From a virus: a stretch of 21,067 nt of DNA. Positions 564 through 21,067 of the stretch are shown piece after piece. The DNA is taken from IMG/VR virus record IMGVR_UViG_3300035698_035345, positions 1-21,067 of that record; one strand, written 5' to 3'. Every line of letters starts with the position of its first letter. Position 1 is the first letter of the stretch. Both the position numbers and the translations under genes were made by a program. A model generated the notes under the pieces. It had not been told where the DNA came from and did not search any database. It worked only from the letters and a program-made list of their open reading frames with translations.

Positions 564-986
564 CTAAAGATCATATGCCTTTAGGTTGATAAGGGTTTCA
601 TTTTGAAACTTCCATTCAAGAGGGAAGTTTTTCAGAAGTTTCTTCATTGTAAGTGGCAATGGCTGGCACCCATTTAGGATCAACTCCACGATCTCAGGCG
701 ACAGAAGTGTCAGTCTTAGAATGCGACTGACGTACGAAGGGTTAATTTTTTCCGCATTCGCTATTTCCTCAATGGTTGTGTAAGTGCCGTCATCAAGGGT
801 TTTCTGCCACCGGAAAGCCCGGGCCAGCGCTTTGACCATAGCGTTATCGATCCGCTTCCGTGGCTTTGCCCATGAAGGCGACCCATCCGGCGTCACTATC
901 AACTTACGACCACCTCTAACCTGGAACTTCATCGGGACGCGAACTGTCATTGTTGTGCCATCAGGGCTTAATTTAGGGACCGTCAT
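564..986 (-). CDS. HTH (ParB/KorB-like) protein, last gene of the recombinase cassette
   Basis: 140 residues. A helix-turn-helix is readable at about residues 70-95 (TIEEIANAEKINPSYVSRIL), followed by LRLTLLSPEIVE and LPLTMKKLL, which resembles the KorB/ParB-type HTH. The start ATG (986-984) overlaps the recombinase stop by one base (TAATG), so it is translationally coupled to it. From memory, this small protein commonly follows a serine recombinase and DUF2924 gene in alphaproteobacterial prophages. A DNA-binding accessory role in recombination, such as site choice or directionality, is plausible. I infer this from position only. It is the promoter-distal gene of the cassette and converges with the gene at 1-489 across a 74-bp gap in which I see no strong terminator. 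Confidence 0.82.
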   Translation of the reverse strand: MTVPKLSPDGTTMTVRVPMKFQVRGGRKLIVTPDGSPSWAKPRKRIDNAMVKALARAFRWQKTLDDGTYTTIEEIANAEKINPSYVSRILRLTLLSPEIVELILNGCQPLPLTMKKLLKNFPLEWKFQNETLINLKAYDL

Positions 987-2299
987 TATGCAGCCCTCCG
1001 TTTTGTCATACTGCCCCTGATTTCAGAGACCAACGTTTCAAGTCCATCGACCCGGAATTTGATGTCGAGCCCATCGGGGTGGACATTGACCCGTTCGACT
1101 AATAGCTGAAGCACTCTGGATTGTTCGGTGGGAAACAGTTCATCCCAAAGCGGGTCGAGGTTTTGAAGCGCCTCACGCACATCAGCTTCAGAAATGCTTT
1201 TATCGTGATCTCGGGCAGCCCGCCAGGTGGCGACAACGATTTCTGGAACCCGAAGCAAGCCACGAACATTCTCGATGACGGCGGCCTCAATTTCCCCGGC
1301 AGGAACACGCCGGACAATGCCGTCTGGAACTTCTCCTTTGAGAAGTTCTGCCGCGACATAATAGCGATAGAGCTTGTTGGTTTTCTTGGTGTGAACCGGG
1401 GTCATTGCCCGCCCATCGGCACCAAAGATAATCCCCTTTAGCAATGCTGGCGTTTGAGCTCGTGTATGATTCGCCCGAGCCCTAGGGCTTTCTTTGATGA
1501 TGGAGCGAACTTTATTCCAAAGATCCAAGGATATGATGGCCTCATGTTCACCAGGATAGGCCGTGCCCTTGTGAACGGCTTTACCAATATAAACCTTATT
1601 TTTAAGTAGTTTGTAGAGGTAGCCTTTGTTTATAGGTTTGCCACGTTTTGAAGTTGTTCCTTCGGCTGCTAGGTCATTGGATAGCAGGGTTGCGGAGCCA
1701 ACGGACAGGAAACGCTTGAATATCATTCGAACTGTATTGGCCTCATCGGTATTCACGACTAGTTTTCGATCCCGGACGTCATAACCAAGAGGGGGATTAC
1801 CGCCCATCCATATTCCCTTCTTGCGGCTGGCTGCAATCTTGTCGCGGATACGTTCGCCGGTGACCTCACGTTCAAACTGGGCAAAGCTAAGCAGAATGTT
1901 AAGGGTCAACCGTCCCATGGATGTGGTTGTGTTGAAGGACTGGGTGACTGATACAAATGTCACGTTGTGCCGGTCAAACACATCGACCAATTTAGCGAAA
2001 TCCATTAATGAGCGGCTTAGCCGATCAATCTTGTAAACAACGACCACGTCAACGCGGCCAGCCTCTATATCGGCGAGCATGCGCTGTAGCGCCGGTCTCT
2101 CCAAAGTTCCGCCGGAAATCCCGCCATCGTCATATTGGTCTGGAACCAATACCCAGCCTTCTTGCTTCTGGCTGGTAATATAGGCCTCGCAGGATTCCCG
2201 TTGGGCATGGAGGCTGTTGAAATCCATGTCCAGGCCTTCTTCGCTGGATTTCCGCGTATAGACGGCACACAGTGTTTTACGAACAAGCGTTTGTTTCAT
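986..2299 (-). CDS. Serine recombinase (site-specific integrase)
   Basis: 437 residues from the ATG at 2299. I chose it over the upstream ATG at 2347 because it has an AGGAG ribosome site just before it and overlaps the DUF2924 stop as ATGA. The resolvase catalytic domain fills residues ~10-150. The nucleophile is Ser18 in YTRKSSEEG, with the helix-E arginines in the IDRLSRSL motif. Next comes the Recombinase domain (GNPPLGYDV, then LYKLLKNKVYIGKAVHKG). The region that is a Cys4 zinc ribbon in many large serine recombinases reads IIFGADGRAMTP here, without cysteines. I believe this is normal for the alphaproteobacterial branch. Such enzymes cut both attachment sites at a central dinucleotide through Ser-DNA links and integrate or excise circular DNA. 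It is shorter than typical large serine integrases but contains every active-site motif I expect. It is the likely mover of this element. Confidence 0.95.
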   Translation of the reverse strand: MKQTLVRKTLCAVYTRKSSEEGLDMDFNSLHAQRESCEAYITSQKQEGWVLVPDQYDDGGISGGTLERPALQRMLADIEAGRVDVVVVYKIDRLSRSLMDFAKLVDVFDRHNVTFVSVTQSFNTTTSMGRLTLNILLSFAQFEREVTGERIRDKIAASRKKGIWMGGNPPLGYDVRDRKLVVNTDEANTVRMIFKRFLSVGSATLLSNDLAAEGTTSKRGKPINKGYLYKLLKNKVYIGKAVHKGTAYPGEHEAIISLDLWNKVRSIIKESPRARANHTRAQTPALLKGIIFGADGRAMTPVHTKKTNKLYRYYVAAELLKGEVPDGIVRRVPAGEIEAAVIENVRGLLRVPEIVVATWRAARDHDKSISEADVREALQNLDPLWDELFPTEQSRVLQLLVERVNVHPDGLDIKFRVDGLETLVSEIRGSMTKRRAA

Positions 2300-2742
2300 C
2301 GACCTTCTCCTGATTTTCTTAGGCCGAAGAAGACCCAGCCGTTCCATCGTGTGCCTGTGATTGCTCTAGCGATAGCTGACAGCGACTTATATGGCCGACC
2401 CTGATATTCAAAACCCTCATCCGTTACTGTGGCGCAGTGCTCAATACCTTGGTACTCGCGAATTAGGCGGGTGCCTGAGATTGGGTGTTGATCAGCCCTG
2501 ATACGTCTCTGGGAAGCCTTCCCCCCGCTTAACTCTTTGCCCAAGGCTTCAAGGCGTTCAATGGTGGCCGGTTTAAGCCCGCCGTATTCAAGTTCCTGAA
2601 TTCGATAAGCCAGGCGACTTTCCAGAAAACGCCGATTCTGACGTGGGGGTTCAGTCTCGAATAGTTTGCTCCAGAGGGCTCTCAAATCCGTAGTTGGCGT
2701 GTCCTTCAACGCGGCAAGTTTAGTGATGATAGTATCGGTCAT
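2296..2742 (-). CDS. DUF2924 domain-containing protein
   Basis: 148 residues. The pattern LRALWSKLFETEPP, then RRFLESRLAYRIQELEYGG, then GTRLIREYQG and the C-terminal SLSAIARAITGTRWNGWVFF is characteristic of DUF2924, a family found next to serine recombinases in alphaproteobacteria. Its biochemical role is not established to my knowledge. The C-terminal half looks like a small nucleic-acid-binding module. The start at 2742 overlaps the upstream gene's stop by one base (TAATG), and its stop overlaps the recombinase start by four bases (ATGA), so the set behaves as one translational unit. I infer an accessory role in recombination, for example as a recombination directionality or site-recognition factor. 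Confidence 0.92.
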   Translation of the reverse strand: MTDTIITKLAALKDTPTTDLRALWSKLFETEPPRQNRRFLESRLAYRIQELEYGGLKPATIERLEALGKELSGGKASQRRIRADQHPISGTRLIREYQGIEHCATVTDEGFEYQGRPYKSLSAIARAITGTRWNGWVFFGLRKSGEGR

Positions 2743-3071: not shown

Positions 3072-5534
3072 TCAATGTTTTTCATCATGATCGTCACTCT
3101 TACGTAGTCCATAGGTAAAATCCGTAAATTTATCAGCTATCTTATTCCACCGATCTTTAGGCTGTTTCAATAACTCAAGCAAAGCTGTGTAATCATTCTG
3201 GAGCCATGCAGGATGCACACCACTTCTTGACGCAAACTCAAGTCCGGTAATGGACCGCCTTTCTCCAGAGAATGATGTGTTGTCTAAGATAAGCTGGGCT
3301 TCGTTGATTTTGCTTTTCGTGAATACAATTTCCCACATCCACCTATATCTCATAGCATCAGAAATTTTGTTTTCTGGTAGAGATTTAGCCTTCACTTCGA
3401 TGCCAAGAACTTTAGCCTCTAAATGCTCTATACAGGTTTGAAGTAATTTACAGGCTGCGGCCGAAAGCTTCTCGTCGCGATCGGGGTCTATGACTGTATC
3501 GATTTTATCTGAAATCCAGTGACTTTCCGTTGTGGCGGCCACGGCAAGGACACCGCCAAAAACGTATGCTCCTGCTGGACCAAACATTAGTGCCCCAATA
3601 CCTTTCCCTGCAAAACCACCGGCAACCGCCATTATGCCCTTTGCAGCAGATTCAAGCGCAACATTGAATGAGGCCTCCTTCATGCTGTGCTGGCCGACCC
3701 ACCATCCATGGGCATTCTTAATTACAGACATAGTTGCGATTAAGGGAACGAGTTCATAATCACCAATTTCAGTTCCTGCTTTTATAGCCGTCTCGACCAA
3801 GCCGTCGGTAAATTCATATGAATAGCCCTCCACGAAAAAAACTTGGCTGGCCCAATCCGGTGATCTATCGGCAATAGTTTCTACAATTTCCGAATTAGCG
3901 ATGACTGGCGTATCCGGGTATTTTTCAAAATGACGTTCGAGAATTTGGAAGTTTTCAGGTGCAATACACTTAACTTGAAACTCAACGCCATCAACGAGCA
4001 GGTCATAACCTGGCTGTGATGCACTTTCAGGAATTGAGACTAGATATCCACTATCTGTTAATCTGGAAGCGACAATTCGTTCTGCTGTGTACCCTAGGAG
4101 ATTTGCTTCATGACCTTTGATTGCAGCGGTGGATAAGGAAGTAATTCTCTCTGCAAATTCTGCGAATAAAAAAGGGTCGCCTAGGTCTGCCGTATGGGAA
4201 AAATCTGCCGCTTCAAGGACCTTGGAATCGATAGATGAAAGGTCAAAAATGAAATCGCACAGTGATAGGCCTGCGAGAAGCAGAGTTTCCCCTTTGCTTC
4301 GTTGATCAGGGAATAGAAAACCTTCGATGAACTGCTCGTTTTTAGTTTTCCCAACGGGCTGATCAAGCTCAGATATCAGCAAGTCCATCTCTTTGTTAGC
4401 CGCTGGCAGTGCAAGCCCCGAGCATAACGCCAGGCTGAGATCGCGATATTTATCAGCAGACGGCAAAGATATTTGAGATGTATTTATTCCATTCTGTCGG
4501 ATCGAGCCGGAGGCATCAAAAAACATTCTGGCAGTACCAATTTTCTGCGACAAGCCGCTATCTAAACCTCGAACTGCGAGAAGAGAGCCTACTGAAACAG
4601 CAAATGCCCTGCGAACCGTTTTTGTCAGAAAATTGGCCTGCATTCCTCCCATTGCGAAAATGACTGGCAGCACAAACAAGGGGTGAGACATAACGAAAAG
4701 GGCAGAGACAAGTGTCTTCCCTCCGACCAAGGGGATAATGGCAGATGCTTGTGCGGCAAGGATGTACGCCCCAAAACCAGCAGCTTCCACCGCTCCCATC
4801 AAGCCGAGTAGACCTCCGCTACTAACGAGAACCTTTTGAATGGCGTCATCCGAAAGTGTTTCCAAGTTGGCTTCTTTAAGGACACTCTGATCCAAATTGG
4901 ATAGTTCACCTCGTATTTGAGAGATCAGATCCTGCTTTTCTGAATCGGGTGTATCGTTGTTACTTAGGGCTGCTCCTAGAAGGGCAAAGACAGCTTCTCG
5001 CACAGCTTCATCAAATGGGACGGCTTCAATGTCTCTGGAGCCAAAAGGATTAGCTTCGTTGGCAAGTCGCTTCCAATAAGCTATTTCCGTCTTCGATAAA
5101 GCGGCCTTTTCTTCAGCATTCCTCTTTTGTGCGATGGATACTGAAATTGCCGCGCCAATATCGTTTGCACAATAATCTAAGTCCCGGGGAGAAATTGCTA
5201 TACGCGGCTGAAGTTCGAAAGAATCCCGGATTTGCGCCCAGAGCGCGAACCTAAGCTCGTTGTCTGAAGAAGAGCCTTTTTCGATATTTGAAGCTATCTG
5301 AATTACACGTTTGGTAAAGCGTTCCGGCGAAACTGTAGATGTGCCATCTTTCCATTCTGAGTATTTGGCATAGGCACTATCGCCAAGGTTTCCGAGTTGA
5401 TCCGTAATTAGAGAAACAGCAGAGCTGTCCTCAAAAATTGCCAAGAATGTAGCAATGCTTTTACGGTCAAGTGACAGCAATCCAAGAGGGATTGAAGCAG
5501 GAGTGATTTTCCCATTTTGTAACTTGGTTGCCAT
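3072..5534 (-). CDS. Large putative membrane protein with PD-(D/E)XK nuclease motif, co-transcribed with the repressor
   Basis: 820 residues from the ATG at 5534, which has GAGGGAG upstream inside the repressor's 3' end and sits 5 bp past the repressor stop. An ATG at 5561 would add nine residues. I do not recognise the family. Order of parts: a helical, charged N-terminus; a long glycine/alanine-rich hydrophobic stretch at ~236-301, faintly reminiscent of YaaW-type proteins; a PD-(D/E)XK nuclease-like core at ~480-525 (GYTAERIVASRL, then GYDLLVDGVEFQVKC, giving Glu485, Asp511, Glu518 and Lys522); a second glycine-zipper-like hydrophobic segment at ~631-667; and a charged helical tail. The layout suggests a membrane-associated DNA-cutting or pore-forming protein. 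Placement directly behind cI means expression in the lysogen, as is typical of superinfection-exclusion or anti-phage genes. That function is inferred, not shown. It is more AT-rich than the early operon, as expected for acquired cargo. Confidence 0.85.
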   Translation of the reverse strand: MATKLQNGKITPASIPLGLLSLDRKSIATFLAIFEDSSAVSLITDQLGNLGDSAYAKYSEWKDGTSTVSPERFTKRVIQIASNIEKGSSSDNELRFALWAQIRDSFELQPRIAISPRDLDYCANDIGAAISVSIAQKRNAEEKAALSKTEIAYWKRLANEANPFGSRDIEAVPFDEAVREAVFALLGAALSNNDTPDSEKQDLISQIRGELSNLDQSVLKEANLETLSDDAIQKVLVSSGGLLGLMGAVEAAGFGAYILAAQASAIIPLVGGKTLVSALFVMSHPLFVLPVIFAMGGMQANFLTKTVRRAFAVSVGSLLAVRGLDSGLSQKIGTARMFFDASGSIRQNGINTSQISLPSADKYRDLSLALCSGLALPAANKEMDLLISELDQPVGKTKNEQFIEGFLFPDQRSKGETLLLAGLSLCDFIFDLSSIDSKVLEAADFSHTADLGDPFLFAEFAERITSLSTAAIKGHEANLLGYTAERIVASRLTDSGYLVSIPESASQPGYDLLVDGVEFQVKCIAPENFQILERHFEKYPDTPVIANSEIVETIADRSPDWASQVFFVEGYSYEFTDGLVETAIKAGTEIGDYELVPLIATMSVIKNAHGWWVGQHSMKEASFNVALESAAKGIMAVAGGFAGKGIGALMFGPAGAYVFGGVLAVAATTESHWISDKIDTVIDPDRDEKLSAAACKLLQTCIEHLEAKVLGIEVKAKSLPENKISDAMRYRWMWEIVFTKSKINEAQLILDNTSFSGERRSITGLEFASRSGVHPAWLQNDYTALLELLKQPKDRWNKIADKFTDFTYGLRKSDDHDEKH

Positions 5535-5539
5535 GGTTG

Positions 5540-6208
5540 CTAAATCTCCCTCGCAAACCACCGAACCCTCCCGATGATACTGATTTCATCGGCGGTACGC
5601 TCGTATTGGCTATAAAATGTGTTGTCAGATATCACCCTAACCTTAGGCGGATCATTGTTGGGGACGTGCTCAAGACGCTTGGCCACCAATCCCATGCCAT
5701 CAAACAAAATGAATATGCCGGGGGGCGTTGGGGAGCGTCGGGCCAAATCCACAAGAACAACGTCACCAGAATGCAGGGTGGGCATCATGCTGTCGCCTTC
5801 CACATGCATGATGCGAAGTTCAGATGGGCTGGCTTTGAGATCATGTTGAATCCACGACCGTTGAAAATGATAAGGTTTCCCGTTCTCCACCTCATCAGAA
5901 GTAATACTACCACCGCCCATGGAAGCCGTAACCTCGACCGAGGGGATCGAAACAAACGCTTGAGAGGGATCTTCAATGATCGGTGATTCGCCTTCTACAT
6001 CTCCCATGCCATGCAACAACCAGTTTCTGTCTACTTTGACCACCTTGGCAACTTGATCAAGTTTCTCCAGATTCGGGTTTTCTGATCGTCCCCGCATGAT
6101 GTCGTAGACAAAGGTCCTGTTGATATCTGCAAGTTCAGCCACCTGCCGGGCATTTAAGCCAAGCTGCCTGGAACGCGCTTTGAGCCTGTCGGCCATGGTG
6201 TATTTCAT
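5540..6208 (-). CDS. CI/LexA-like S24-family phage repressor
   Basis: 222 residues from the ATG at 6208, which has GAGGA seven bases upstream. The longer reading from 6316 would cover the operator region and is unlikely. The N-terminal XRE helix-turn-helix spans ~residues 5-60 (LNARQVAELADINRTFVYDI). The C-terminal S24 peptidase domain has nucleophile Ser140 in VEGDSMMPTL and general base Lys177 in GLVAKRL, with the hinge around VEVTASMGGGS. A classic Ala-Gly cleavage pair is not obvious there. Proteins of this type repress the lytic operon and self-cleave with RecA on DNA damage. It is divergent from the early operon at 6315 and followed 5 bp later by the 820-residue nuclease-like gene. The intergenic region holds its promoter and a tandem repeat that may be its operator. 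Confidence 0.95.
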   Translation of the reverse strand: MKYTMADRLKARSRQLGLNARQVAELADINRTFVYDIMRGRSENPNLEKLDQVAKVVKVDRNWLLHGMGDVEGESPIIEDPSQAFVSIPSVEVTASMGGGSITSDEVENGKPYHFQRSWIQHDLKASPSELRIMHVEGDSMMPTLHSGDVVLVDLARRSPTPPGIFILFDGMGLVAKRLEHVPNNDPPKVRVISDNTFYSQYERTADEISIIGRVRWFAREI

Positions 6209-6225
6209 CAGGTTATCCTCAGGGC

Positions 6226-6243
6226 TGTGGATTATGTGGATTA
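6226..6243. repeat. Tandem TGTGGATTA repeat, candidate repressor operator
   Basis: Two perfect head-to-tail copies of the 9-mer TGTGGATTA (6226-6234 and 6235-6243), with a related GGATTGA at 6249-6255. They cover the -10 and start region of the leftward promoter. Repeats placed here are typical repressor sites. Direct rather than inverted geometry is unusual for a dimeric CI protein, so the assignment is an inference. Confidence 0.5.
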
Positions 6244-6268
6244 AAAAGGATTGATTCATTCTAGTCAA
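6240..6268 (-). promoter_or_regulatory. Sigma-70-type promoter of the repressor operon
   Basis: On the minus strand TTGACT (6268-6263) is followed after exactly 17 bases by TTTAAT (6245-6240). Each hexamer matches consensus in 5 of 6 positions. Transcription would start about 6230-6233, some 25 bases before the repressor ATG at 6208. The -10 hexamer overlaps the second copy of the TGTGGATTA repeat, which fits autoregulation. Confidence 0.72.
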
Positions 6269-6277
6269 GGATATAAA
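6251..6277 (+). promoter_or_regulatory. Candidate rightward early promoter
   Basis: TTGATT (6251-6256) and TATAAA (6272-6277) are separated by only 15 bases, short for sigma-70. The site lies ~40 bases before the first rightward gene (6315) and overlaps the oppositely directed repressor promoter, so polymerases would compete. A better-spaced alternative was not found in this 106-bp gap. Confidence 0.4.
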
Positions 6278-6314
6278 ACAAATGGCGAACATATAAGCTT
6301 GTAGGTGGTCGGTC

Positions 6315-7004
6315 ATGGCGGGAATAGAGAAGGAATATTTTACACTGGACGAGGTAGTGTCCTGCTGGGATATGCCTCATCGAGACCTCGTGTACCTTGC
6401 CGAAAACGGGCTATTGAAGGTCTCCGTGCGGCTCTATGGCATCCACATCGAACGCGGTTCTTATGAAGAGATGGGAAATGGTCAGTGCTGCAATATCCCA
6501 GAAGAGCGTGTGTCGTTTCAGGGGCTGCAGGATCTTCTCTCTCGTGACGTTTATCGCCTGTTTCATGAAGGGCAGATCAAAGTCGACCAGTTTGACGCAC
6601 CAGATGACCAATATTGCCATGTGCTTTCCCCGGAAGAAGGTATTGTGATTAAGAAGGAGGAACTTGTGGTTAGCCGCTTAGAGCGGGACCGGGCGGAAGC
6701 AAAGCACGGCCTTGGCGGGGTGAGCCGTAGAACGGATACTGTGTTCGAGCAGAAGAACGATTTCACCGATGTATCATTAGGCGAACGAAGCTACACCCTG
6801 GGACCCATTCAGGCCAAAGTCGTCGGTATTCTCTATGATGCAGCAACGACAGGATCTCCCTGGCGGCATGGACAACAGGTGCTGGCCGAGGCGGGTTCAA
6901 GATGCACCCGGATTTCTGACCTGTTTAAGACCCAGTCCGACTGGCGCAAACTGATCCAGTCAGACAAGCGTGGAAAATACCGGCTGAACATCAAGTTTTC
7001 TTAG
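6315..7004 (+). CDS. Conserved prophage protein, first gene of the rightward operon
   Basis: 229 residues. The N-terminus (YFTLDEVVSCWDMPHRDLVYLAENGLL) reads like a winged-helix/MerR-type DNA-binding fold. The middle (FQGLQDLLSRDVYRLFHEG) and the C-terminus (LGPIQAKVVGILYDAA, PWRHGQQVLAEAG, ISDLFKTQSDWRKLI) form a second conserved block that looks like a wHTH. I remember homologues at this position, divergent from the S24 repressor, in alphaproteobacterial prophages, but no assigned function. Position equals that of Cro/early regulators, so a regulatory role is likely but unproven. An AGGTGG lies six bases before the ATG. A 191-bp gap follows. Confidence 0.82.
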   Translation: MAGIEKEYFTLDEVVSCWDMPHRDLVYLAENGLLKVSVRLYGIHIERGSYEEMGNGQCCNIPEERVSFQGLQDLLSRDVYRLFHEGQIKVDQFDAPDDQYCHVLSPEEGIVIKKEELVVSRLERDRAEAKHGLGGVSRRTDTVFEQKNDFTDVSLGERSYTLGPIQAKVVGILYDAATTGSPWRHGQQVLAEAGSRCTRISDLFKTQSDWRKLIQSDKRGKYRLNIKFS

Positions 7005-16691: not shown

Positions 16692-17975
16692 ATGACCGCA
16701 AGTATCATCAACACAGGCGACAAGATTGAACTGGTCGCCGCTGACAAACTTGCCTGCCACCCTGACAATCCGCGCCGGGGTGACGTAGATGGGATCCGCG
16801 CGAGTATTTCTGCCAACGGTTTTTATGGGGCCTTGGTGGTGCAACGTTCAACCGGGCACATCCTTGCAGGCAATCACCGCTTCATGGCGGCGCAGGCGGA
16901 AGGGCTAGAAAAGTTCCCGGTCATCTACGTGGATGTTGATGACGAAGAAGCAAAATACATTCTGGTGGTCGATAACCGATCGTCAGACCAAGCCGAAAAT
17001 GATCACGAAGTTCTAGCCGCCATTTTGCAGGGCCTTCAGTCCAATGAACAAGGATTGAGCGGCACTGGATATTCCGATGCAGACCTAGCTGGTTTGTTAG
17101 CTTCTGTAATGGATGCTGGCGAAGCCTTAGAGGGCGAAGACGATGTTCCAGACACCCCGGAAGAACCGGTTACGTGCCCAGGTGATTTATGGACCCTTGG
17201 AAATCACCGCCTAATTTGTGGTGACGCAACCCTAGCCACCGACGTGGAGCGATTGTTGGGAACGGTCAAACCGCTCCTTATGGTCACGGACCCGCCTTAC
17301 GGTGTGGAGTATGATCCGTCATGGCGCAATCAAGCTGGTGCCACCGCCACCAAACGAGTCGGAAAAGTGTTAAACGATGACCGAGCAGACTGGCGCGAAG
17401 CTTGGGTATTATTCCCGGGGGATGTTGCCTATGTCTGGCATGGCGCATTACATGCGGCAACTGTCGCTGAGAGCCTCGAAGAATCTGGTTTTAAAGTTCG
17501 CTCACAAATCATCTGGGCTAAAGAAAGATTAGTGCTGAGCCGTGGAGATTACCACTGGCAGCATGAACCTTGTTGGTACGCAGTCAAAAAGAAGGGTAAG
17601 GGCCACTGGGCAGGTGATCGCAAGCAGACAACCCTTTGGCAGATCGCCAACCGTGACCAGGACAGTGTGACCGTTCATGGCACACAAAAACCTGTAGAAT
17701 GTATGCGCCGCCCCATCTTGAATAACTCAAGTCCGGGACAGGCAATTTACGAGCCCTTCATGGGATCGGGGACAACGATGATCGCGGCGGAAAGCACGGG
17801 TCGTGTTTGCTATGGCTCTGAACTAAGCCCGGCCTATGTGGACGTGGCAATTTTGCGTTGGCAAAACATAACAGGTGAAAAAGCAATTCTGGATGGTGAT
17901 GGCCGGACCTTTAATGACATTCACCACAAAAAATATCAGGATAGCTCCGCTTCCATTTTGTTGTCTTCGGCATGA
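16692..17975 (+). CDS. ParB-like nuclease-domain / DNA methyltransferase fusion
   Basis: 427 residues. The ParB N-terminal-like domain spans ~10-110 (LACHPDNPRRGDVDGIRASI, then ILAGNHRFMAAQ). The methylase follows in beta-class order: catalytic DPPY at 200-203 and the SAM motif FMGSGTT at 356-362, ending with LSPAYVDVAILRWQNITGE. Such phage enzymes methylate adenine-N6 or cytosine-N4 and can protect phage DNA from host restriction. The specificity cannot be read. No restriction gene is adjacent, so it is an orphan methylase. The ribosome site is weak (TTGGAAA, 13 bases away). The final ~15 residues (KYQDSSASILLSSA) are read from the antisense strand of the XRE gene, which overlaps it by 40 bp. 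The original 3' end was therefore probably replaced when the AT-rich block at 17936-19486 arrived. Confidence 0.92.
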   Translation: MTASIINTGDKIELVAADKLACHPDNPRRGDVDGIRASISANGFYGALVVQRSTGHILAGNHRFMAAQAEGLEKFPVIYVDVDDEEAKYILVVDNRSSDQAENDHEVLAAILQGLQSNEQGLSGTGYSDADLAGLLASVMDAGEALEGEDDVPDTPEEPVTCPGDLWTLGNHRLICGDATLATDVERLLGTVKPLLMVTDPPYGVEYDPSWRNQAGATATKRVGKVLNDDRADWREAWVLFPGDVAYVWHGALHAATVAESLEESGFKVRSQIIWAKERLVLSRGDYHWQHEPCWYAVKKKGKGHWAGDRKQTTLWQIANRDQDSVTVHGTQKPVECMRRPILNNSSPGQAIYEPFMGSGTTMIAAESTGRVCYGSELSPAYVDVAILRWQNITGEKAILDGDGRTFNDIHHKKYQDSSASILLSSA

Positions 17976-18886
17976 CGATATTTGTCCTCTAGCCAGGCAA
18001 CACGATCACCTGCTCTACGAGGTTCCCAGAGATCGTCAGGAATTTCTGAGATCGATACGACACCTTTTTCAAGGGCGTTTCTTGCATCTGTGCTACCAAG
18101 CGTAATTTGTTCGAGGATGTCCAAACAAACACTGTGATCTGGTACGCGGTTGCCTGACGAGTACCAATAGCGTTGAGCAATGTCTCTTTCGTCAACAACT
18201 TCCGTGTCGTTTTTTAAAAGCGGCCTTTGACTGACTTCATATAAATAGTCAGCAAAGGGATTAGGGCTTTCCCAAGGGGGAGCGTACTCATCGTGTAGAT
18301 ACCCTTCGAATAAATCTCTGTTTTTTACAGCATGCCACCGCTCTGAAAAATAGTCCTCCTCCGTAGAGCCTGGCGGCATCGCATCTGATTCAGGCATCCA
18401 CGGTATGGTTGGTGTTTTTAACAAATCACCTAAACCTGGAATTTGGTGCCAAAGAGTTGTGAGATTTCCATATTCGCGTGCGTCTTTGTCAACTTGTTCT
18501 TTTTGGCGCTGAAGACTTTCTTCCGCAGCATTGGCAAAAAGAAGTGGGGCGACCAGTATTATATCTTCAATATCTATGTGATATTTACGCTTCAAAAGAT
18601 CATAATTAAGCCTAGTCTGGGGATTAAGTCGAACGCTGAGGTCAAATGGTTTTCCGTCTTTGGGCATTGGATCCTCTCCTGCCAAGACACCAGGTCTTTC
18701 ACCTAGGGCCTTACATAAACCCTTCAGGGTTTTCTGTTGGACGAAAATACGGTCTGATTTTTCTTTTTCGAGGGTCGAAATTCTACGTGCGGTAAGAGAA
18801 CTCTTTTCAGCGAGCTCTTCTTGTGACCACCCTTTTCGAAGTCGTAGGGCTTTTAAATTTTGTGGTGAAATGACAGATTTTTTCAT
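17936..18886 (-). CDS. XRE-family regulator with large C-terminal domain
   Basis: 316 residues. The HTH is at ~8-62 (NLKALRLRKGWSQEELAEKSSLTARRISTLEK). A long C-terminal domain follows, with LNYDLLKRKYHIDIEDIILVAPLLFANAAEESLQRQK and acidic helical stretches. It ends around DDLWEPRRAGDRVAWLEDKYR. I recall proteins with this C-terminal domain in proteobacteria annotated only as transcriptional regulators. It lies 34 bp downstream of the DUF4258-like gene on the same strand, as in a toxin-antitoxin or self-regulated pair. The block is noticeably AT-richer than the methylase it overlaps (40 bp, tail to tail). AAGG lies about ten bases before the ATG. Confidence 0.88.
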   Translation of the reverse strand: MKKSVISPQNLKALRLRKGWSQEELAEKSSLTARRISTLEKEKSDRIFVQQKTLKGLCKALGERPGVLAGEDPMPKDGKPFDLSVRLNPQTRLNYDLLKRKYHIDIEDIILVAPLLFANAAEESLQRQKEQVDKDAREYGNLTTLWHQIPGLGDLLKTPTIPWMPESDAMPPGSTEEDYFSERWHAVKNRDLFEGYLHDEYAPPWESPNPFADYLYEVSQRPLLKNDTEVVDERDIAQRYWYSSGNRVPDHSVCLDILEQITLGSTDARNALEKGVVSISEIPDDLWEPRRAGDRVAWLEDKYRHAEDNKMEAELS

Positions 18887-18920: not shown

Positions 18921-19337
18921 TCAGTTGATAATTTTTGAAATTCTTTTGAGCTCTGATTTGGAGCACGAGTAGCAGGTGACTACGTGATTTCCGCTGACTA
19001 CTACTTTTCTATTTTTCAACCGCTCAATGGCATCTATTTGTTGGCGCAGATTGGACATTTGTGAATATAGACCGTCGTTACTCTGACGTATTTCAGTGCC
19101 GCAGTGATCGATACGGTTTTTGCTGATTCGTCGTATTATTGTTTTGATATGTTCACGAAGATTGGAAATTTCTCGCTCTGTGTCTTTGCGTGTAAACAAT
19201 ACTTCTTTGTCATTTATGAATGTGCCGAGGTGGATAATTGACGATATATCGGCTTCTGAAAAAGACCGTTGCTGCATACGGGCCTGGGCGTGTTTTGTGA
19301 AAAACAATGTGGTGTTTGGGTTCTTAGAATTCTTCAT
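18921..19337 (-). CDS. DUF4258-like protein (possible RelE/BrnT-type toxin)
   Basis: 138 residues with a perfect AGGAGG upstream. The N-terminus FFTKHAQARMQQRSFSEADISSII and the C-terminus KVVVSGNHVVTCYSC match the DUF4258 layout (His-Ala-x-x-R-M-x-x-R opening, final beta-strand VV-x-G-x-x-VVT-x-Y). Between them is an enlarged charged helical segment with a repeated pattern (EREISNLREHIKTI and SQMSNLRQQIDAIERL), which may be an internal duplication making it longer than the ~90-100 residues I expect. DUF4258 proteins resemble small ribonuclease toxins but activity is not established. The XRE gene behind it on the same strand would serve as regulator or antitoxin. Both are inferences from arrangement. 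Confidence 0.75.
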   Translation of the reverse strand: MKNSKNPNTTLFFTKHAQARMQQRSFSEADISSIIHLGTFINDKEVLFTRKDTEREISNLREHIKTIIRRISKNRIDHCGTEIRQSNDGLYSQMSNLRQQIDAIERLKNRKVVVSGNHVVTCYSCSKSELKRISKIIN

Positions 19338-19793: not shown

Positions 19794-20357
19794 ATGGCTG
19801 AAAGCGCTCAATCCGCTGACGTGTTGGCAAAATTGCTCGACATCACCGAACGCCGCGTCCGTCAGCTCAGCGCGGAAGGTATCATTCCAAAGGTTGCGCG
19901 CGGTCGTTACGAAATGGTTGGCGCTGTGCGCGGCTATATCCGATACCTGCGAGAATTATCTCTCAAAGGTGAAGTAGGTCCCGCTGACTACGGCACCCAA
20001 CGCGCACGCCTAGTTAAAGCAAAAGCAGACTTGGCGGAAATGGAAGCCTCACAAATGCGGGGAGAATTGTTACCGGCTCCCGATGTGAAACGGGCATGGA
20101 CGGAAATCGTGGCGCTTATGCGGGCACGACTGCTGGTGCTGCCCGATAAAATAGCACCGGTGGTTCATGAAACGACAAGCATCGCTCAAGCCAAAGACGT
20201 CATCAAAAAAGCGGTCTTCGAAGTCCTCTCGGAAATCGCCGACACCGACGTTGAAATCACCCCTCACCTTGAAGGGAACGACGGCGTTGAAGTTGACGGT
20301 GACGAGCGCGCTGAAAGTCGCAACACCGCCGCCAAGCCTGACGATCAGCCAGTGGGT
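19794..20357 (+). CDS. Terminase small subunit (Nu1-like), 3' end fused to chromosomal sequence
   Basis: About 188 phage-derived residues. The N-terminal wHTH is clear (LAKLLDITERRVRQLSAEGIIPK, ~10-33, then RGRYEMVGAVRGYIRYLREL). The block RARLVKAKADLAEMEASQMRGELLPA is typical of Nu1-type small terminases, which bind the packaging site and load the large subunit. After an acidic linker the phage-like sequence runs to about DDQPVG (ending 20357). The same reading frame then continues to a stop at 20648 through the histone deacetylase gene in the wrong frame, giving a 284-residue product with ~96 nonsense residues. No terminase large subunit follows. The gene is therefore cut at its 3' end by integration or deletion. 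The ribosome site is weak. Confidence 0.85.
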
Positions 20358-20360
20358 TTT
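20339..20360. other. Junction between phage terminase and histone deacetylase sequence (candidate att site or deletion joint)
   Basis: Phage-like terminase coding appears to persist to about 20357. Histone-deacetylase homology in another frame (ASGFCYFNEPAL) begins at about 20348, just after a TGA at 20339-20341. The two homologies share GCCAGTGGGT (20348-20357). A short shared core is expected at a serine-integrase attachment site but also at a microhomology deletion. I found no second copy of this core at the left end of the window. Confidence 0.65.
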
Positions 20361-21067
20361 GTTATTTCAACGAGCCTGCACTCACCATGGGTCACCTTCT
20401 TGAAACCGGCACTCAACGCATTTTCTATATCGACCTTGATGCCCATCATGGTGATGGCGTGCAGGATGCTTTCCATGACGACGACCGCGTCTTCACCCTG
20501 TCCATTCACGAAGGTGGTCGCTGGCCGATGGATCGACGCAGCGCCAATCCAGATACACAGCCCGGCGGCATTATGGACCGGGCTGGGGGCGCTGCCCGAA
20601 ACCTCCCCGTCCCACCCGGCCTTAACGATGATGAACTTGAAGCCTTGATTGAGGGCGTCGCATTACCCCTCATCACATCGTTCGAGCCTGAGGCATTATT
20701 TATTCAATGTGGCGTGGATGCGCTCAGTGATGACCCACAAAGTCGTCTTGAGCTCTCGAATACAGCGCTTTGGCGTGCCGTCAGCACGCTTAAGGATTTA
20801 GCCCCCCGCCTGATCGTTTCTGGTGGCGGTGGATACAACCCCTACAGCGTGGCGCGTGGCTGGGCAGGTATCTGGGGCGTGCTCGCTGGGTTCGATGTGC
20901 CTGAGGCTTTACCGCCAGAAGCCAAGGCCCTATTGCGCAACGTAACATGGCAACATCGCCGCGCCGCCAATGCACCAAAAAGATGGTTCACCACGCTCGC
21001 CGACCCAGCTCATCATGGCCCCATCCGCCCCGAAATCCGAAATCTGATTAAAGAGCATTCTAGCTAA
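20342..21067 (+). pseudogene. Histone deacetylase / AcuC-like gene, 5' truncated
   Basis: An open frame of 241 codons runs to the stop at 21067. The family signatures are strong: GFCYFNEPAL, the zinc-ligand motif DLDAHHGDGVQ, the second aspartate region QCGVDALSDDP and the active-site loop SGGGGYNPYSVARGW. The normal N-terminal ~130-150 residues, including the catalytic His-His pair, are missing because the terminase gene replaces them. An internal ATG at 20387 could give a 226-residue product, but it would lack the catalytic dyad. These enzymes are zinc-dependent deacetylases acting on acetyl-lysine or small acetylated substrates. This is chromosomal, not phage, sequence. The missing 5' part may lie beyond the left end of the element, outside this window. 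Confidence 0.88.

Follow-up and report, generated by a model that had tools for sequence, protein, structure and literature searches.

What does a protein of 820 residues do when its gene lies directly behind the repressor of a prophage? The question is raised by a virus record (IMG/VR IMGVR_UViG_3300035698_035345) whose positions 1 to 21,067 are called the window below: these 21 kb hold a serine recombinase, a cI/S24 repressor, a replication region and a terminase small subunit, and the gene of interest is placed between the repressor and the recombinase. A first, sequence-only reading had proposed a membrane-anchored nuclease or pore of an unrecognised family. We argue from sequence comparison that the target is probably a little-known defence protein, guarding the host of the resident virus against other viruses, since relatives of it occur in further mobile elements and in the company of known anti-phage genes.

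The gene and its prophage setting

The features of this region of the window are:

3072..5534, minus strand: target coding sequence, 820 amino acids, candidate membrane-linked PD-(D/E)XK defence protein (open reading frame; full-length homologues L001, L002, L004, L024 and L038)
5540..6316, minus strand: cI-like repressor, HTH and Peptidase_S24 (Pfam PF00717, PHROG phrog_4)
5546..5551, minus strand: AGGGAG ribosome-binding-like site, within the end of the repressor gene (sequence)
986..2347, minus strand: large serine recombinase/integrase of the prophage (Pfam Resolvase/Recombinase, phrog_95 integrase)
2296..2742, minus strand: DUF2924 protein, between the target gene and the recombinase (Pfam PF11149)

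The target gene is defined by an open reading frame of 820 codons and its translation. Its ATG lies 5 bp past the repressor stop, on the same strand, just as the first reading had it, and this start is backed by the copy in L001, whose protein is 90% identical and begins with the same first methionine. A scan for promoters and terminators returned fewer sites than in shuffled sequences, and is uninformative. The gene is under purifying selection: compared with the L001 copy, dN/dS is 0.076 over the whole gene (dN 0.052, dS 0.688) and 0.03 in the nuclease region, where just 3 replacements are found in 125 residues. It is thus more than a product of chance.

Elsewhere in the window, an XRE-type HTH gene (17936-18886, 44.7% GC) and a DUF4258 gene (18921-19337, 40.3% GC) adjoin each other on the minus strand; they are low in GC compared with 51% for the window, and are possibly a toxin-antitoxin or defence cargo pair. 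The frame of the terminase small subunit (19794-21067, plus strand) matches phrog_57 to about residue 169 and, judged by eye, continues into sequence resembling the histone-deacetylase family in another frame (20387-21067): this end of the record may be host DNA, decayed prophage or an assembly joint. At the opposite end, positions 1-489 of the plus strand hold a 162-codon open reading frame with low GC (40.9%), a Cys-rich C-terminus and no family match.

A predicted nuclease core between two hydrophobic regions

The hydropathy profile of the target protein has two long hydrophobic regions (residues ~231-304 and ~633-668) and a third, short one (417-435). Both long regions are glycine-rich and the nuclease-like motif lies between them, as the first reading had described. 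The parts of the protein are:

4845..5534, minus strand: N-terminal helical region, residues 1-230 (AlphaFold2 secondary structure, low confidence; alignments A1/A6)
4677..4964, minus strand: stretch with a tentative, distant similarity to JukA/YaaW (DUF3944), residues ~191-286 (hhalign of A8 against A9; PADLOC JukA on 2 of 8 members, the window's own not among them; decoy test)
4623..4844, minus strand: first glycine-rich hydrophobic region, residues 231-304, with an AGF-x-x-Y motif (hydropathy; motif kept in 8 of 8 members)
3735..4109, minus strand: predicted PD-(D/E)XK nuclease core, residues 476-600 (AlphaFold2 of residues 430-600; Foldseek; PDC-M72B match)
4080..4082, minus strand: Glu485 codon, invariant (14 of 14)
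4002..4004, minus strand: Asp511 codon, invariant (14 of 14)
3975..3977, minus strand: Gln520 codon (Q in 8 of 14, N or S in 6)
3969..3971, minus strand: Lys522 codon, invariant (14 of 14)
3531..3638, minus strand: second glycine-rich hydrophobic region, possible hairpin, residues 633-668 (hydropathy; conserved after the nuclease in relatives)
3081..3479, minus strand: C-terminal helical region, residues 686-818 (AlphaFold2 pLDDT about 64-86 over residues 691-790)

Searches of Pfam, NCBIfam and PHROGs returned no family for this protein: a single chain in which two hydrophobic modules flank a PD-(D/E)XK core is not represented there. The earlier statement that the family is unrecognised is correct to that extent, but the nuclease half does match a PADLOC candidate, PDC-M72B. 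A match of the glycine-rich C-terminal half to the tape-measure family phrog_167 (E=0.008) was put down to composition. In the Bacteroidota members, the second glycine-rich region matches Pfam Gly-zipper.

The signature proposed at first was E...D...E-x-Q-x-K, and Glu485, Asp511, Glu518, Gln520 and Lys522 are indeed at the positions given for them. Conservation, however, upholds only part of it: Glu485, Asp511 and Lys522 are invariant in 14 relatives out of 14, most of them less than 50% identical in the core, but just 3 of the 14 aligned proteins have E at position 518. Q occupies position 520 in 8 of them, namely L009, L037 and every long-form member, and the remaining 6 have N or S there; adding L039, a member of PDC-M72B, brings the proteins with Q to 9. 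Consequently, the signature is E...D...QxK, which leaves out Glu518, a residue that the alignment marks as probably non-catalytic. The E...D...QxK signature occurs in the Mrr- and HJC-like branches of PD-(D/E)XK enzymes.

Residues 430-600 probably adopt the PD-(D/E)XK fold. Their AlphaFold2 model, built with four sequences, has a pTM of 0.65 and a pLDDT of about 80-91 across most of the core, and the predicted order is a helix (Glu485), strands (Asp511; Gln520 and Lys522), a helix and a strand, that is, alpha-beta-beta-alpha-beta. In this model Glu is on a helix, and Asp and QxK are on beta strands, as in PD-(D/E)XK enzymes. Structure prediction had been put forward as one test of the nuclease claim, and what emerged is a confident core in the PD-(D/E)XK order instead of an absence of the fold. 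The Foldseek comparison with the PDB is led by the HJC resolvase 4tkd and by CdiA-CT, 4g6v (both with probability 0.99), with I-Ssp6803I, Ecl18kI and YaeQ lower down; the best matches are mostly PD-(D/E)XK enzymes, no match has an E-value below 0.001, and unrelated folds are also among the 50 matches listed. Against a viral library, the matches include VRR-NUC, restriction endonucleases and PD(D/E)XK proteins, all weak, and a sequence search of the PDB gave no match to any solved nuclease. We take 4g6v to be a toxin nuclease that cuts tRNA; since it is among the best structural matches, the substrate of the target may be RNA.

Of the two options offered at first, nuclease or pore, a restriction-endonuclease-type core with hydrophobic flanks speaks for the membrane-anchored nuclease, and nothing was found for the pore. 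The full-length AlphaFold2 model (three sequences) has a pLDDT of 38.7 and is therefore unusable for topology.

The closeness of the core to the CdiA-CT toxin suggests another reading, in which a phage signal would release the otherwise inactive nuclease, which would then degrade host DNA or tRNA, stopping the infected cell. The large N-terminus, helical in the model, could act as the sensor of such an abortive-infection toxin. All full-length members keep both hydrophobic modules, however, which favours action at the membrane, and we regard this reading as possible but unlikely, with further evidence on both sides coming from the neighbours of the relatives.

Relatives and their neighbourhoods

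Full-length relatives are rare: they are found on a second viral contig, on a plasmid, on a recombinase-bearing element and in an island that also holds DSR2, GmrSD and a methyltransferase. The closest is the L001 copy, whose surroundings comprise a tyrosine integrase, an IS-type open reading frame whose end lies just upstream and, on the downstream side, an AAA_15 ATPase. Its DNA similarity to the window record is confined to the target gene, and its neighbours are different: the same gene thus sits in two different mobile surroundings. The other relatives of full or nearly full length include L002 from Rhodothermales (31% identity), a protein of a Paracoccus plasmid (28% identity, WP_101754937.1), L024 on the viral contig IMGVR_UViG_2698536749_000002 (26-28% identity), and L038; Shinella has a truncated copy. 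In L037 (6314-8861), the membrane half and the nuclease half are separate open reading frames overlapping by 29 bases, which is either a two-gene form or a frameshift; the membrane half is homologous to the N-terminus of the window protein (E=1e-9).

More distant relatives, found in the phylum of G002, have in common only the nuclease core, a hydrophobic region rich in glycine and a tail of coiled-coil type, and in most of them a single N-terminal hydrophobic helix replaces the long N-terminal half. Matches occur in 6 of 395 sampled genomes of that phylum (A1) and in 7 of 245 in one class (A4). For a genome labelled Nitrospirae, the search of its phylum returned that genome alone, and 50,697 GenBank phage records gave no match. 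A tree of the core weakly separates the long QxK forms from the N/SxK group: it requires two changes, and a single change is obtained in 54% of bootstrap trees.

The sister group L011/L018, L035, L036 and L012 has NxK in place of QxK, with the glycine-rich region, the coiled-coil-like tail and, where the N-terminus is complete, one N-terminal hydrophobic helix. This N/SxK group, from Bacteroidota-type genomes, is partly found beside MoxR/BatA-like genes, and its role is perhaps not defence.

The neighbour lists that follow are descriptive, with no background rate of defence neighbours to set them against. Around L002 (locus L022) we find a GmrSD-like protein, a methyltransferase, an XRE-ImmA-like protein and DSR2 (1281 bits), and further on HsdR_N and NucS-type proteins and a PIN protein, then the relative itself. 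Around L009 (locus L016) there are a NERD-UvrD helicase, a PHP-SMC protein (Ppl-like) and a methyltransferase. In L037, the relative is flanked by recombinase-like open reading frames, and a PDC-M63A-like protein is present. On the L024 contig, the opposite strand carries an M48-like protease, DUF7002, an adenylosuccinate-synthetase-like protein and ImmA-macro proteins, and the S24 repressor is ~8 kb from the relative. Independently of the relative, this group of genes (L024:11513-16298, minus strand), in which the adenylosuccinate-synthetase-like protein has a dCTPase-like N-terminus, resembles an undescribed nucleotide- or ADP-ribose-related defence cluster.

The survey of homologues proposed in the first reading thus gives a divided result: long forms often lie by phage, mobile-element or defence genes, but part of the sister group has housekeeping neighbours. 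Linkage to a repressor, found in this window, recurs in none of the relatives, which adjoin an IS and integrase, a PIN toxin, IS elements or recombinases.

These neighbours bear on the abortive-infection toxin discussed above, which gains from relatives that adjoin toxin-like genes and DSR2, and loses because no accompanying gene for an antitoxin or immunity protein was seen. They also raise the suspicion that the protein has no part in defence, being a membrane-linked nuclease, or former nuclease, with a role in housekeeping, maintenance or element transfer that mobile elements carry by chance. L018 and L036, both NxK, do adjoin MoxR/BatA-like and other housekeeping genes, and just a handful of members are known; however, every long QxK form with readable surroundings belongs to a mobile element or a defence island, and a position in a repressor operon suits a gene useful to the lysogen. 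A role outside defence is, in our judgment, distinctly unlikely.

The explanation that we prefer, at close to even chances, is a PD-(D/E)XK nuclease associated with the membrane, part of the prophage's cargo, that attacks the nucleic acid of incoming phages in lysogens. The gene would be cargo of the lysogeny region and, if co-transcribed with the cI repressor, the nuclease would probably be made together with it in lysogens. The two hydrophobic modules, presumably inserted in the inner membrane, would keep the protein there and at a distance from the host chromosome, and the nuclease core (Glu485, Asp511 and Gln520/Lys522) would face the cytoplasm. From there, it would cut the nucleic acid of a superinfecting phage on entry, presumably DNA during injection, and the expected result is superinfection exclusion. 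Against this explanation, known phages hardly ever carry members of the family, and the linkage to a repressor is a single case. The three residues E485, D511 and K522 allow a direct test of the nuclease mechanism.

Comparison with known systems

This picture is not wholly new: the nuclease half appears to belong with a defence candidate that is already catalogued, and anti-phage nucleases bound to the membrane have been published as a concept. The PADLOC model PDC-M72B (PADLOC-DB candidate PDLC04784/PDLC04785) matches the window protein with E=2e-4 over model positions 30-124 of 193; through the nuclease core it also matches L001 (7.5e-6), L009 (6.6e-7), the Paracoccus protein, L024, L037 and L038. 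The profile-profile searches suggested in the first reading succeeded for the core, whose profile A4 aligns by hhalign with L039, a clear PDC-M72B member of 335 amino acids, with E=1e-7 and probability 94, the next best of 44 E. coli and 6 JukA/YaaW-type proteins having a probability of 2. Like the window protein, L039 has a hydrophobic region behind the core, and its Glu, Asp and QxK fall in the matching alignment columns; unlike the window protein, L039 is without the N-terminal half of ~400 residues, including the first hydrophobic module. Its gene lies between a small coiled-coil-like open reading frame and a zinc-ribbon-like one, with Mrr-like and AbiE-like genes, identified by eye, in the vicinity; PADLOC gave no match near it to PDC-M72A, the partner in this two-gene candidate system. 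PDC-M72B itself is a computational candidate only, and a literature search found no published function for PDC-M72.

For the N-terminal hydrophobic block, the profile-profile outcome is more modest, and depends mainly on the split relative L037. Alignment A8 compared with the JukA/YaaW profile A9 gives E=8e-5 and probability 60 (60 column shuffles reach at most 2); the L037 half reaches probabilities of 83-88, above 44 E. coli decoys, and other members taken alone have no match to the profile. The PADLOC JukA model matches the L037 half (E=6e-6) and 2 of 8 members overall. We treat PADLOC JukA and YaaW as one family, partly because the JukA model has matches in E. coli. The N-terminal hydrophobic module may thus be distantly related to the jumbo-phage sensor JukA, which is described as a sensor paired with diverse effectors (PMC13282480).

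It is tempting to see in the target a fusion of the Juk type, in which a JukA-like N-terminal module would bind early phage products at membranes and the nuclease would be the effector. However, the window's own protein has no match to the PADLOC JukA model, comparisons with single JukA-like proteins score low (best probability 28), E. coli YaaW itself gives no match, the DUF3944 N-terminal domain was not found, and hydrophobic sequence can mislead profile comparisons. JukA, moreover, is a separate sensor of ~245 residues without a nuclease, and the window protein has a predicted one in the same chain. We consider such a fusion quite improbable. We are little more inclined to a broader conjecture, doubtful as it stands: a single-chain immune protein made of a JukA-type membrane sensor of early infection, a PD-(D/E)XK nuclease and a second membrane module, existing in one-gene and split (L037) forms, used by a prophage behind its repressor, and explaining PDC-M72B.

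On two plasmids of 94-100 kb, from E. marmotae and E. coli (L042:1-909 and L046:124-1347), genes of the YaaW/JukA type with DUF3944 immediately follow the gene of a helix-turn-helix regulator; on the Acinetobacter plasmid pMsp11 (L043) such a gene comes after a DUF4258 gene.

Several relatives weakly match the PADLOC systems LeoB/LeoBC over the glycine-rich region and the helices that follow, with no match for the window protein; these matches, in which the nuclease has no part, and those to ZorA, were put down to glycine-rich, coiled-coil composition. The HJC resolvase and CdiA-CT, the best structural matches to the core, have low scores, no sequence similarity and no membrane modules.

The closest parallel to the membrane-associated nuclease that we prefer is SNIPE, with which membrane-held nucleases were recognised in 2026 as a new way to tell phage DNA from self (PMC13190303). 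SNIPE has an inner-membrane anchor and a cytoplasmic nuclease, cleaves during injection, and becomes toxic once the anchor is removed; it consists of one N-terminal transmembrane helix, DUF4041 and a GIY-YIG nuclease (PMC13190303). As in SNIPE, one chain would join a membrane anchor and a nuclease, both predicted here, and the proposed target is entering phage DNA; unlike SNIPE, the window protein has a predicted PD-(D/E)XK core and two longer hydrophobic regions, with no DUF4041 match in Pfam and nothing corresponding in NCBIfam or PADLOC. By analogy, it would work like SNIPE without being SNIPE, since nuclease family and anchors differ. If this is true, PADLOC's unexplained PDC-M72B would gain a testable mechanism, and an unrelated nuclease fold, in a different membrane arrangement and on a prophage, would mean that the same solution arose more than once.
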